This document shows, piece by piece, positions 39,916-60,263 of a stretch of 64,000 nucleotides of DNA (its first letter is position 1; each line of letters opens with the position of its first letter). The stretch is from Clostridiales bacterium (lineage in GTDB: Bacteria > Bacillota > Clostridia > Peptostreptococcales > Anaerovoracaceae). The stretch spans positions 1 through 64,000 of the forward strand of contig DUVF01000028.1 of NCBI GenBank assembly GCA_012841165.1. Reading direction: 5' to 3'. The notes under the pieces are model-generated. The model searched no databases and had not been told where the DNA came from. It saw only the letters and a list, made by a program, of their open reading frames with translations. A program made the position numbers and the translations under genes.

Positions 39916-40764
39916 CTATTTATTGTAATCAAAAAAGCCGGCGCCGCTTTTGCGACCCAGTTTTCCGGCCCGAACCATCTTGCGCAGCAAGGGATGCGGC
40001 CGGTATTTAGGGTCACCAAATTCCGTGTGCAAGGTTTCCATGATCGCCAGACAAACATCAAGGCCGACCAGATCGCCCAACGCCAGGGGGCCGAGCGGAT
40101 GACTGGCGCCGAGTTTCATCGCTTCGTCAATGTCTTCCGCCCTTGCGATACCATCCGCCAAAACGCCAACCGCTTCGTTGATCATCGGAATGAGGATACG
40201 GTTAACCACGAAACCGGGCGCTTCTTTTATTTCCACCGGAGTTTTCCCCAGGGCAACCGTCAGCTCAACGATCTGCTCTTTAGTTTCGTCAGACGTCATC
40301 ACGCCCTTGATAATTTCCACCAGCTTCATCATTTGAACAGGATTGAAAAAATGCATCCCGATAACTTTATCGGGGCGTTTGGTCGCTGCCGCAATTTCTG
40401 TGATGGAAAGAGACGAAGTGTTGGTCGCCAGGATCACATCCGGCCGGCAGATCTCATCTAATTCCGCGAAAAGCGCCTTTTTAGCCGCCATTTCTTCAGT
40501 GGCGGCTTCGATGATTACATCAACATCTTTCATGATACCGATATCAGTCGAACTATTGATGCGACCCATGATAAGCGCTTTTTCATCTCCGCTGAGATTT
40601 CCCTTTGCAATCAGGCGATCAAGATTCTTTTCCACTGCAGCGATCCCTTTATCAACTGATGTTTGTCTGCGGGCACGCAGGCTTACCTGATGACCCGACT
40701 GAGCCAGCAGTTGAACAATGCCGGCTCCCATAGTTCCGGATCCCAATACGCCGATATGTTTCAT
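39916..40764 (-). CDS. hbd: 3-hydroxybutyryl-CoA dehydrogenase
   Basis: It interconverts acetoacetyl-CoA and 3-hydroxybutyryl-CoA with NAD(P)(H), either in butyrate synthesis or in butyrate beta-oxidation. The 282 aa protein has the dinucleotide-binding [17 protein letters not shown], the catalytic His in [15 protein letters not shown] with the Glu partner, and [19 protein letters not shown] precedes the ATG. It follows crt by 43 bases. Direction of flux cannot be read from the sequence. Confidence 0.95.
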
Positions 40765-40807: not shown

Positions 40808-41587
40808 CTATCTTCCTTTAAAGTCTGCTTTCCGGTTCTCAAGGAAGGCGCCCATGCCTTCCTTCTGATCGGCCGTTTCGAAGCACATGCCGAACAGCTT
40901 CGCTTCCACTTCGATCGCCCGGTCGATCTCCGGGGTTTCGAGGCCCCGTCGAATCGCCTGCTTGGCGTATCGAACCGCCATTGGGGCGTTTTTCAAGATA
41001 CGCGCCGCCAGATGATCAGCGGCATTCATAAGTTCCTCATGTGGTACCACCTGATTGACCAAACCGATCCGCAATGCTTCCTCAGCATCTATGACATCAC
41101 CGGTTAAAATCAGTTCGACGGCTTTTTGCTTACCGATCAGACGAGGCATCCGATGTGTTCCGAAATATCCCGGAATAACACCCAGTCCGACTTCAGGCTG
41201 GCCAAATTTGGCGCGTTCACTGGCGATCCGGATATCACAGGCCATAGCTAATTCACAGCCGCCACCCAACGCATACCCGTTAACCGCCGCGATCGACGGC
41301 TTGCACATCGTCTCTATCCTGCGAAAAACTTTCTGCCCCAAACGGCCCCAGGCAACGCCGCCGGCTTCGTCAAGAGAATGCATTTCCGCGATATCGGCTC
41401 CGGCGACAAAAGCACCCCCTCTTCCGGTGATGACCGTCAAGACCACCGAGTCATCCCGAGCGATCTCTTCAAGCGCTTCCTGCATATCGCGCAACACCGC
41501 TTCGCTGAGCGTATTCATAGCTTGCGGACGATTGATCGTCAACAGCGCCATACCGCTATCTTGTTTGTCCAGTTCTACAAATTCCAC
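40808..41587 (-). CDS. crt: enoyl-CoA hydratase (crotonase)
   Basis: It hydrates crotonyl-CoA to 3-hydroxybutyryl-CoA, the substrate of the adjacent Hbd. The 259 aa protein has the oxyanion-hole segment FVAGADIAEM, the catalytic Glu in GGGCELAMACD and the second Glu in GQPEVGLGVIPG, both intact. The start is GTG at 41587 with GGGAGG nine bases upstream and overlaps pgi by 13 bases. Bcd/EtfAB and thiolase genes, expected for a full C4 cycle, are not in the window. Confidence 0.94.
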   Translation of the reverse strand: MEFVELDKQDSGMALLTINRPQAMNTLSEAVLRDMQEALEEIARDDSVVLTVITGRGGAFVAGADIAEMHSLDEAGGVAWGRLGQKVFRRIETMCKPSIAAVNGYALGGGCELAMACDIRIASERAKFGQPEVGLGVIPGYFGTHRMPRLIGKQKAVELILTGDVIDAEEALRIGLVNQVVPHEELMNAADHLAARILKNAPMAVRYAKQAIRRGLETPEIDRAIEVEAKLFGMCFETADQKEGMGAFLENRKADFKGR

Positions 41588-56811: not shown

Positions 56812-58542
56812 TCAGCCTCTCTTTTGATAATGCGTGTGCAACAATTTATGCGACAAGTGTCCGTTCGGCTCCTTCAGGTACTCATCGTACAGGCGTTTAA
56901 CCGAAGGATTCTGGTGCGATTTGCGGTACTCGGCCGCTTTCTCGTCTTCGCTGTACAGCGCTTTTGCCCGCTCAACAGCAACATCGATCTCTGACCGAAC
57001 CTGGTCGCTAACGATAGGTTGGCCGCCACCCATGATGCATCCACCGGGGCAGGCCATCACTTCGATGAAATGGTAGGGCGCTTTGCCGCTCCTCACCTGA
57101 TCCATCAGTTTCTTGATATTGCTTCCGCCATGCGCCAGCGCCACCTTAAGCTTCAGGCCTTCTTTGACTTCTATTTCTGCTTCGCGAACGCCTTCCAGAC
57201 CGCGCACATCATGATATTCGACATTTTGCAGGTCTTTTCCGGACAAAATATCTGCCAGGGTTCGCAAAGCCGCTTCCATGACGCCGCCGGTCACACCAAA
57301 GATAACCGCAGCGCCGGTGGAATCACCGTAAAATTCGTCGAACTTTTCATCCGGCAGTTTAGTGAAATCGATATCTGCTTGCTTGATCATTTTGGCCAGC
57401 TCCCGGGTAGTGATGCTGATGTCGACGTCGCGACGGCCATCGACCTCTAACTCTTCACGGCCGACCTCAAACTTCTTTGCCGTACAGGGCATCACACTGA
57501 CTACCACGATGTCGTCCGGATTTATGCCGGCCATCTCTGCGTAATGACTTTTCAGCAGAGCGCCCATCATGTTCTGCGGACTCTTGCAGGTGGACAGATT
57601 ATCCAGCAGATCGGGATAATTATGTTCACAGAATTTGATCCAACCGGGCGAGCAGCTGGTAATCATCGGCAATACGCCACCTTTTTCGACTCGCCCCAGC
57701 AACTCGGTACCCTCTTCCATGATGGTTACGTCGGCCGCGAAATCCGTATCAAAGACTTTCTTGAAACCCAGCCGGCGCAACGCCGCGGCCATTTTACCGG
57801 TAACCGGTGTGCCAATGGGCATGCCGAACTCTTCGCCCAGAGCCGCCCGCACCGCCGGAGCAGTCTGCACTATGACATATTTGGCAGGGTCGTTCAAAAC
57901 TGCCCACACTTCGGCAGTTTGATCTTTTTCTTTCAGTGCTCCCACCGGACAATTGACTATGCACTGGCCGCAGTTGATGCAGGACAGTTCTTCAAGCGGA
58001 GCATCGTAAAAAGTGCTGACGAACATTTTGTCGCTGCGTCCATTAAAGGCCAGAACGCCGGCTTCCTGAACCTTGTCGCAAACCCGCACACAGCGGCCGC
58101 AGTTGATACAACGGCTGTTGTCGCGAACGATGGTCGGAGAAACAATTTCTTCCTCTTCTGGATAACTCTTCAAATAGGGAGTGGTCTCTACGCCCAGCTC
58201 CTTGCCCAGCCTCTGCAGTTCGCAGTTCAAATTGCGCGCGCAGATCGTACAATCCGCATTATGATTGGCAATGATCAGTTCGAAAATGCCTTTGCGCAGT
58301 TCCCGTACCCGCTTGGTGTTGGTCCGGACGACCATGCCTTCGGAGACTGGATGCACGCAGGCTGTTTGAATTGATTTATTCGCTTCGACCACACAAATAC
58401 GGCAGGAACCGACCTCATTGATTCCCTTCAGGTAGCACAGGGTGGGAATATTGACGCCGGCCTTGCGCGCCGCTTCTAAAACGGTCGTTCCCGCAGGGAC
58501 GGTGACTTGTTGATTGTCTATGGTAAGTGTCACAACGCTCAT
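56812..58542 (-). CDS. hydA: [FeFe] hydrogenase catalytic subunit HydA
   Basis: A 576 aa subunit that reduces protons or oxidises H2. N-terminal 2Fe-2S domain (Cys in CYLKGINEVGSCRICV), a His-Cys3 4Fe-4S segment (HNADCTICARNLNC) and two 4Fe-4S sites (CINCGRCVRVC, CINCGQCIVNCP) pass electrons to the H-cluster domain with TSCSPGW, MPCTAKKFE and MACPGGCIMGGGQP. TSCSPGW has Ser in place of the second Cys of TSCCPGW, as in several NAD-linked enzymes. The C-terminal small subunit is fused. It is last in hydC-hydB-hydA. Maturation genes hydEFG are not in the window. Confidence 0.95.
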   Translation of the reverse strand: MSVVTLTIDNQQVTVPAGTTVLEAARKAGVNIPTLCYLKGINEVGSCRICVVEANKSIQTACVHPVSEGMVVRTNTKRVRELRKGIFELIIANHNADCTICARNLNCELQRLGKELGVETTPYLKSYPEEEEIVSPTIVRDNSRCINCGRCVRVCDKVQEAGVLAFNGRSDKMFVSTFYDAPLEELSCINCGQCIVNCPVGALKEKDQTAEVWAVLNDPAKYVIVQTAPAVRAALGEEFGMPIGTPVTGKMAAALRRLGFKKVFDTDFAADVTIMEEGTELLGRVEKGGVLPMITSCSPGWIKFCEHNYPDLLDNLSTCKSPQNMMGALLKSHYAEMAGINPDDIVVVSVMPCTAKKFEVGREELEVDGRRDVDISITTRELAKMIKQADIDFTKLPDEKFDEFYGDSTGAAVIFGVTGGVMEAALRTLADILSGKDLQNVEYHDVRGLEGVREAEIEVKEGLKLKVALAHGGSNIKKLMDQVRSGKAPYHFIEVMACPGGCIMGGGQPIVSDQVRSEIDVAVERAKALYSEDEKAAEYRKSHQNPSVKRLYDEYLKEPNGHLSHKLLHTHYQKRG

Positions 58543-59790
58543 TTAATTCGCCTCCTCCAGTCTGAACGCTTCAGGGAAATACTTGCGTGCAGTCAGAAAG
58601 GGAACGACTTCCGTTTTTCCGGAACCACACAGAGAACCGCCCTTCATGACATTCATAATCGAATCGTAGCGCTTCAGATCGGCCGCGTCGGCTGTGCCGG
58701 CCGCCAGATTATTCAGCACGAAATGCAACTGACGATTTCCCTCGCGGCAGGGCGTACACTTGCCGCAGCTTTCGTGAAGGAAAAACTCGCCGATAACTTT
58801 CAAATAATCACGGAGATCATTGGTTTCATCTGCCACTACGATAGCACCCGATCCGACGCTGAGTCCTACTGCTTCCAAACCTTCGTAAGTATATCGCGTG
58901 TTCCACATTCCGACCGGCAGCAATCCGCCGGAGGCGCCGCCGATCTGAACAAAGTATCCCTTGCTTCCGTCTTTCATCCCTCCGCCAAAACCATCGATGA
59001 TCTCGCTTATGGTCAAGCCAAACGGAATTTCATATACGCCCGGCTTGTTGACCTTGCCGGAGATGCTGATCACCTTTGTTCCGGTGCTTATCTCGGTTCC
59101 ATATGCCTTGAAGCTGTCGGCGCCCTTCCGCAAAATGCTGGCAATCGCCGACAAGGTTTCAGTATTTATTACCAGGGTTGGCAGCCTGAGGTAACCGGCC
59201 TGCTTGACAAAGGGCGGCTTAGTTCTCGGACGACCGGGCTTGCCTTCCAAACTTTCGCAGAGAGCAAAACCTTCTCCGCAGACATAGGCGCCGGCGCCGC
59301 TGAACAGACGGATATCGAAAGCATATCCCGTGCCCAGGACATTTTCTCCCAACACCTTGCGGTCACGGCATTGGCGGATCGCATCATTGATGGCTTCATG
59401 CTGCCAGGTATATTCTTCCCTGATATATATAATACCTTCTTTGGCATCGGAGCATATTCCAGCTACTATCATGCCTTCGATCACCTGATATATGTTTTGC
59501 TTCAGGAGCTCTCTGTCTTTGAAAGTTCCCGGTTCTCCTTCGTCGGCGTTGCAGACGACAAATTTTCTTTCTCCAATGGCCTCTCTCGCCTGGGTCAGTT
59601 TTATGCCGGTTGGGTAAGCGGCGCCGCCCCGGCCCTGCAGGCCGGATTCAGCGATGATCGCGACCGTCGCTTCAATGCCTCTGTCGGCCAGCTGCCGGAC
59701 AGTTTCGAAACCGCCCAGTTTTATGTAATCGTCAATGTTCTGACCATCATAACGTCCGAACCACTCGGTAATGTAACGCACCTGTTCCAT
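58543..59790 (-). CDS. hydB: NADH-binding hydrogenase subunit HydB (short, NuoF-like)
   Basis: A 415 aa flavoprotein with the NuoF core: FMN/NADH site GLQGRGGAAYPTG, ADEGEPGTFKDR, the GAGAYVCGE segment, and the 4Fe-4S ligands SCGKCTPCREG and SLCGSG. Bifurcating HydB proteins are about 600 aa, with an N-terminal thioredoxin-like 2Fe-2S domain and a C-terminal 2[4Fe-4S] domain. Both are absent here: the chain starts in the core and ends about 20 residues after the last Cys. It would oxidise NADH and feed HydA. One base is shared with the hydC stop. Confidence 0.94.
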   Translation of the reverse strand: MEQVRYITEWFGRYDGQNIDDYIKLGGFETVRQLADRGIEATVAIIAESGLQGRGGAAYPTGIKLTQAREAIGERKFVVCNADEGEPGTFKDRELLKQNIYQVIEGMIVAGICSDAKEGIIYIREEYTWQHEAINDAIRQCRDRKVLGENVLGTGYAFDIRLFSGAGAYVCGEGFALCESLEGKPGRPRTKPPFVKQAGYLRLPTLVINTETLSAIASILRKGADSFKAYGTEISTGTKVISISGKVNKPGVYEIPFGLTISEIIDGFGGGMKDGSKGYFVQIGGASGGLLPVGMWNTRYTYEGLEAVGLSVGSGAIVVADETNDLRDYLKVIGEFFLHESCGKCTPCREGNRQLHFVLNNLAAGTADAADLKRYDSIMNVMKGGSLCGSGKTEVVPFLTARKYFPEAFRLEEAN

Positions 59791-60263
59791 TATCCGGCCC
59801 TCCTTTCGCTGATCAGCTCACGCACCTTCTCGCGGGTCAGGTTACCGAACACCTCGTTGTTGATGCGAACCGCCGGCGCCACATCGCAAGCTCCGATGCA
59901 ATGTGTCGTCGCCAGGGTGAAAAGACCGTCGGCATCAGTCTGTCCGACTTCCAGGCCGAGCTCTTCTTTGAACCAATCCAAAAGAGCATTGTAACCGACA
60001 ACCGAACAAGCCGTTGATTCGCAGATCTGTATCAGATACTTCCCCCGCGGTTTATCGGACAGAGCGGCAAAATAAGTCACAACTTCAAAAACCTGCCCGG
60101 GCGTAACTTCTAATGCCCTGGCTACTTCTTCAGCGATTTCCCGGCTCACATAATGCTTTCCCGATCGTTCCTGCAATTCAAGCAAGACCGGCAGCAGTGC
60201 CGAGGAATCATTGCCGTGCTTGGCGCAAGCTTCGGCTACAAGATTCTGAACCACACCTTCCAT
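59790..60263 (-). CDS. hydC: hydrogenase subunit HydC (NuoE-like)
   Basis: A 157 aa thioredoxin-like protein with a 2Fe-2S cluster: ligands in CESTACSVVG and CIGACDVAP. It completes the trimeric NAD-linked hydrogenase. It is first in the hydCBA run, with GGGAGG upstream of the ATG at 60263. Confidence 0.94.
   Translation of the reverse strand: MEGVVQNLVAEACAKHGNDSSALLPVLLELQERSGKHYVSREIAEEVARALEVTPGQVFEVVTYFAALSDKPRGKYLIQICESTACSVVGYNALLDWFKEELGLEVGQTDADGLFTLATTHCIGACDVAPAVRINNEVFGNLTREKVRELISERRAG

Follow-up and report, generated by a model that had tools for sequence, protein, structure and literature searches.

Does a trimeric [FeFe]-hydrogenase with a short HydB subunit make H2 from NADH without ferredoxin, and does its presence mark the bacterium that carries it as a syntroph? 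The operon that raises these questions lies on the minus strand of a 64,000-nucleotide stretch of DNA (in its entirety, the window), with the gene order hydC-hydB-hydA running from 60263 down to 56812. The leading gene, hydC (59790..60263), its ATG preceded by a ribosome-binding-site-like GGGAGG, encodes a thioredoxin-like [2Fe-2S] subunit of 157 aa (PF01257, 148 bits). hydB (58543..59790), with an ATG start, encodes a short FMN/NADH-binding beta subunit of 415 aa. hydA (56812..58542) encodes a [FeFe]-hydrogenase alpha subunit of 576 aa (NF040763, 885 bits against a cut-off of 765), for which Pfam marks out [2Fe-2S], NADH-G-type [4Fe-4S], 2[4Fe-4S] and H-cluster domains and a small-subunit-like tail. 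Thus, a HydA with an H-cluster domain is joined with HydB and HydC in one operon, the Hyd1ABC-type arrangement. One base is common to hydC and hydB, hydB abuts hydA, and all three genes are intact. Since, in addition, the same three-gene order recurs in JAAXUP010000049.1 (L009), where HydB has 428 aa, the shortness of the window's HydB does not look like an artefact of assembly or reading frame. The neighbours of the operon, named by eye, are a DedA-like protein, an L25-like ribosomal protein, an EamA-like transporter, a deacetylase and an amidase. No tRNA was found near hydCBA, and a promoter and terminator scan there gave consensus matches only.

The initial annotation described HydB as lacking both the N-terminal thioredoxin-like domain and the C-terminal 2[4Fe-4S] domain of bifurcating enzymes, and its domain content bears this out. 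Pfam recognizes Complex1_51K (residues 46-217), SLBB (240-276) and NADH_4Fe-4S (331-410), and nothing more. The best four solved relatives are chains of 584-630 aa (E ~1e-105), which pair with residues 2-409 of the window protein from their own residue 102-148 and have 74-81 residues left past the match; because they overhang at both ends, both flanking Fe-S domains are missing from the window's HydB. The bifurcating HydABC enzymes of T. maritima, A. woodii and T. kivui (PDB 7p5h, 7q4v, 8a6t) have the same three core subunits and a homologous FMN subunit, but their HydB proteins are 599-630 aa long, with extra Fe-S domains, a GGPSG motif and Ala, Met and Phe at the diagnostic sites considered below. 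Might the missing domains be encoded separately? No separate ferredoxin gene was found near the operon: in stop-to-stop frames of at least 30 aa, from 45 kb to the end of the window, the cysteine motif CxxCxxCxxxC occurs in HydA only.

According to Losey 2020 (PMC7311640), the number of clusters does not by itself discriminate between bifurcating and non-bifurcating enzymes, and cluster content varies in both groups. Cluster count was accordingly not accepted as a sole discriminator, and residues and a tree were used as well. The marks of the non-bifurcating type given there are T or S at position 232, K, S or A at 234 and Y at 367 (T. maritima numbering), and absence of GGPSG. With Thr89, Lys91, Tyr169 and GG-Ala286-SG, the window's HydB agrees with the non-bifurcating type on each of the three criteria. 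Residues were counted in 118 aligned HydB cores (35 long, 60 of the window's clade, 15 other non-bifurcating and 8 of a neighbouring group). All 35 long proteins have Ala, Met, Phe and GGPSG; in the window's clade, Thr and Lys are universal (60/60), Tyr is replaced by Phe in one row (Tyr in 59), and GGPSG never occurs (0/60). At one further column the window's HydB has Glu86, as in complex I, and all 35 long proteins have Asp. PMC10482914 discusses an Asp/Glu difference near FMN that sets StnB/HydB apart from Nqo1; we infer that it refers to this column. The NCBIfam model NF040763, 'NADH-dependent [FeFe] hydrogenase, group A6', was tried as a discriminator and rejected: it passes its cut-off not only with the window's HydA but also, at 903 bits, with the HydA (L080:10953-12752) of the bifurcating-type operon that the same genome carries. 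Since it accepts both kinds of HydA, its name may mislead annotation.

The HydB phylogeny, which the initial annotation had singled out as a check, points the same way. In a 94-row tree (quick IQ-TREE, with SH-aLRT supports and AU tests) the window's HydB sits within a clade of 41 rows (SH-aLRT 98), apart from the 30 long bifurcating proteins, which form a clade of their own (SH-aLRT 100). A topology that puts it with these bifurcating proteins is rejected (p-AU 6.5e-5); the grouping tested was chosen once the tree was known. Its nearest kin are the HydB proteins of L009 (69% identity), of DUUE01000122.1 (L010; 66%), of two f88 genomes (66%) and of one f2 genome; identity to the HydB of genome G130 is 60%. 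L009 and L010, although MAG contigs of other organisms, share the GEGF motif of the window's HydB, and L009 the operon as well. Some HydB/NuoF match is found in 146 of 148 genomes of an order-level sample, and the best 20, the window's own included, are short frames (417-486 aa). A phylum-level sample has matches at E <= 1e-60 in 350 of 398 genomes; the best 15 are again short frames, and further down among the matches listed long frames predominate. Within the organism's own family a short HydB is found in 12 of 296 genomes at E <= 1e-105, a threshold at which weaker ones would be missed. Joining the window's HydB with seven other short HydB proteins of that family is rejected (p-AU 2.7e-4). 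Because this test, too, was framed after the tree had been seen, horizontal gain or differential loss of the short HydB is offered as a lead only. The genes of the hyd operon seem to travel together, to judge by the HydA proteins of the same close relatives, which are also top-scoring (868 bits for L009).

We regard it as very probable that hydCBA encodes a ferredoxin-independent, non-bifurcating, NADH-dependent trimeric [FeFe]-hydrogenase of the S. wolfei Hyd1ABC kind. The independence from ferredoxin, proposed in the initial annotation, gains support from the loss of domains, the Losey 2020 residues, the tree and the two purified relatives in which an NADH-specific, ferredoxin-independent activity has been characterized, the enzymes of S. 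wolfei (PMC5626996) and S. aciditrophicus (PMC7311640). That the window's enzyme is an ordinary member of this described family is well supported. Purified S. wolfei Hyd1ABC (Losey 2017, PMC5626996) is likewise a trimer of HydA, HydC and a short HydB (HydB1, 407 aa) without the N- and C-terminal Fe-S domains. It is reported to catalyse NAD+ reduction by H2 at 94.5 U/mg and H2 formation from NADH at 6.6 U/mg, and ferredoxin did not raise its activity; PMC9304861 places it among non-bifurcating homologues whose BfuB is without clusters B2-B5. The S. aciditrophicus HydAB, from which the residue criteria derive, is described as non-bifurcating and NADH-only, with NADP+ activity below detection (PMC7311640). 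The window's enzyme is, by homology, of the same kind, but in S. aciditrophicus a HydC-like part is fused to the N terminus of HydB, so that there are two genes in place of three. The kinship with the S. wolfei enzyme is not especially close in sequence: HydB proteins of the f50 genomes, probable Syntrophomonadaceae and thus relatives of S. wolfei, are just 45-47% identical to the window's. No maturase was recognized by eye beside the f50 hydCBA, in 9.8 kb.

In the proposed reaction NADH would reduce the single FMN of HydB, and electrons would pass by way of its one [4Fe-4S] cluster and the [4Fe-4S] chain of HydA to the H-cluster, where protons would be reduced to H2. Ferredoxin would have no role, since HydB is without the C-terminal ferredoxin-like and N-terminal [2Fe-2S] domains. 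H2 formation from NADH would be favourable only if H2 were kept low. The direction of the reaction, its cofactor, its independence of ferredoxin and the division of labour with a second hydrogenase (below) are all things that we infer, and three other readings have to be weighed.

The first concerns direction. The enzyme might serve mainly in H2 uptake, with NADH as the product of H2 oxidation, say as a supply for biosynthesis or as a complement to the bifurcating enzyme. The reaction of the S. wolfei enzyme is reversible, and the rates quoted above are higher in the direction of NAD+ reduction (PMC5626996), but rates measured in vitro at high H2 do not decide which way the enzyme runs in the cell, and neither the operon nor the genes around it give any sign of H2 use; we consider this reading quite unlikely.

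The second concerns the cofactor. In A. aeolicus NuoF, as described in PMC11677225, Glu185 and Lys76 hold the adenosine ribose of the nucleotide, with Tyr205 (in T. thermophilus, Phe205) stacked against adenine. The window's HydB has Gly174 at the place of the A. aeolicus and T. thermophilus NuoF Glu185 (minus-strand codon at 59269..59271, a coordinate computed from the residue number) and Phe194 at site 205. In the 118-core alignment site 185 is Glu in all 35 bifurcating and all 15 other non-bifurcating rows. In contrast, Glu is absent from all 60 rows of the window's clade (Gly in 50, Asn in 5, Ser in 3, Thr in 2) against none of the 50 bifurcating and other Glu-type rows, and also from the 8 of the neighbouring group (all Asn); on the tree its absence amounts to one change. 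Arg at site 205 is found in 10 of the 60 window-clade rows and in none of the 58 others, and the tree requires three changes for it; a short HydB of the Ser and Arg type is that of L013. The equivalent Glu of E. coli NuoF (Glu183) reportedly excludes NADPH, a finding attributed to Morina in 2011. T. maritima HydABC uses NAD+. The two sites hold Glu and Phe in the HydB proteins of T. maritima and A. woodii, and Ser and Arg in the bifurcating T. kivui HydB. The T. kivui protein is described as NADP-only, and A. woodii as using NAD+ (PMC8578170). Gly in the place of a ribose-holding Glu might, then, admit NADPH to the window's enzyme and link the NADPH pool to H2. We think it very unlikely, for site 205 is still Phe and the same pair, Gly and Phe, occurs in the f50 genomes, probably of the S. 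wolfei family, whose Hyd1ABC is reported to have used neither NADPH nor NADP+ under any tested condition (PMC5626996). NADH remains the better guess, by analogy with these f50 genomes, which probably include Syntrophomonas and like which the window keeps its Phe.

A broader scenario would have Glu185 lost once in the ancestry of the short-HydB hydrogenases, the lineages with Arg at 205 becoming NADPH-dependent and ferredoxin-independent, and the window's enzyme either relaxed towards NADPH or with a rebuilt NADH site; we put it forward as conjecture, with an outside chance of being right. A literature search, as far as the portions of the sources that it brought up extend, found no confirmed trimeric [FeFe]-hydrogenase that is both NADPH-linked and non-bifurcating. 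PMC5626996 mentions an older report of one from Desulfovibrio fructosivorans, and Losey 2020 (PMC7311640) counts that enzyme as bifurcating. PMC13277313 was considered as a case of a hydrogenase switching cofactor and set aside: the switch that it describes concerns an alcohol dehydrogenase. With Glu185 lost throughout the clade, and Arg present at 205 or not, cofactor choice in these enzymes becomes a two-residue question that can be put to the test at the bench.

The third reading, that the enzyme still bifurcates, ferredoxin docking elsewhere or a distant gene supplying the missing clusters, could draw on the varied cluster content of both groups (PMC7311640), but it is most improbable: no frame resembling a ferredoxin was found around the operon, between 45 kb and the window's end, and all of the residue criteria and the tree are opposed to it.

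What, then, of the way of life? The operon of a non-bifurcating, NADH-dependent hydrogenase had been taken, together with hbd and crt in the same window, to indicate H2 production from NADH in a syntrophic or low-H2 lifestyle. The type of enzyme is upheld by the evidence already given; the case for the lifestyle is weak. Both genes are indeed in the window, but outside the hyd operon and ~17-20 kb from it, on the minus strand: hbd (3-hydroxybutyryl-CoA dehydrogenase, 39916..40764; NF004474, 437 bits against a cut-off of 408) and a crt-like gene for a short-chain enoyl-CoA hydratase (40808..41587; NF004475, 351 bits, below the cut-off of 394). Such genes function both in the formation of butyrate and in its oxidation.

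The rest of the genome (G000; 1,297,038 bases in 74 contigs, 94% complete, so that absences are to be read with the possibly missing 6% in mind) weighs more heavily. PF01512 and the H-cluster domain each have two matches in it, which belong to the window's operon and to a second, full-length hydCBA of the bifurcating type outside the window (contig C66, L080:8613-12752, plus strand). This second operon encodes a HydC of 168 aa, a HydA of 599 aa and a HydB of 605 aa. Unlike the window's, this HydB is of the ~600-aa form with extra Fe-S domains, here C-terminal ferredoxin domains, and GGPSG; it falls within the bifurcating clade of the 94-row tree (L001). The growth of S. wolfei on fatty acids, as reported in PMC5626996, involves no direct formation of reduced ferredoxin. 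The genome does not present a catabolism of that sort, yielding NADH and reduced Etf and no reduced ferredoxin: its POR gamma domains, named by eye, are of PFOR and IOR type, one in a 1181-aa frame resembling PFOR (C63) and one beside an IOR-like alpha subunit (C58). The window's genome thus differs from S. wolfei in having PFOR and the second, bifurcating-type HydABC. PF00384, the domain of molybdopterin formate dehydrogenases, has no match in this 94% complete genome, though such an enzyme could be in the missing part, and RnfC_N likewise has no match in the 94% at hand. A formate dehydrogenase for formate transfer is common, though not universal, in syntrophic fatty-acid oxidizers. Of the genes that were to be looked for elsewhere in the genome, bcd-etfAB and formate dehydrogenase, the search thus found acyl-CoA dehydrogenases with EtfAB (below) and no formate dehydrogenase of the PF00384 type.

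Since catabolism that forms ferredoxin coexists with hydrogenases of both the bifurcating and the ferredoxin-free type, a fermenter with two hydrogenases, and so with two outlets for NADH, is no worse a fit than a syntroph. The window's enzyme would work beside the bifurcating-type HydABC, which would couple the oxidation of reduced ferredoxin with that of NADH, and the cell would dispose of NADH by one or the other according to the level of H2. According to Losey 2020 (PMC7311640), some genomes encode both kinds of hydrogenase, and many genera with no known syntrophs possess the non-bifurcating enzyme, which is unlikely to suffice by itself as a marker of syntrophy. The present case adds a small-genome, Bacillota-type lineage to those with the ferredoxin-independent hydrogenase; this lineage has the bifurcating enzyme too, so that one 1.3-Mb genome holds both NADH outlets. 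It also counsels caution in inferring syntrophy from a short HydB.

A few other genes deserve mention. The CCG domain occurs in the membrane Etf:quinone-type Fe-S oxidoreductase that is linked to reverse electron transport in syntrophs; in this genome it is matched only in one 816-aa Fer4_20/FAD/CCG protein. Beside the gene for that protein, on the minus strand of contig C46 (L138:3577-8996), lies a molybdenum-hydroxylase-like gene (named by eye), and the pair makes possible a use of molybdenum without an enzyme of the PF00384 type. The genome has four ETF domains. On contig C39 (L077:440-9320, plus strand), two acyl-CoA dehydrogenases, etfBA, a DUF6125 gene and two carboxybiotin decarboxylase beta subunits (of Na+-pumping decarboxylases) stand in a row. 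The best NCBIfam match of the first of these acyl-CoA dehydrogenases is glutaryl-CoA dehydrogenase Acd (384 bits, below the cut-off of 470), and the cluster may represent a Na+-pumping pathway that converts glutarate or glutaconate into crotonyl-CoA. A second etfB lies near the end of contig C1 (L078) and an etfA at the start of C45 (L079); the two are perhaps one pair split by the assembly.
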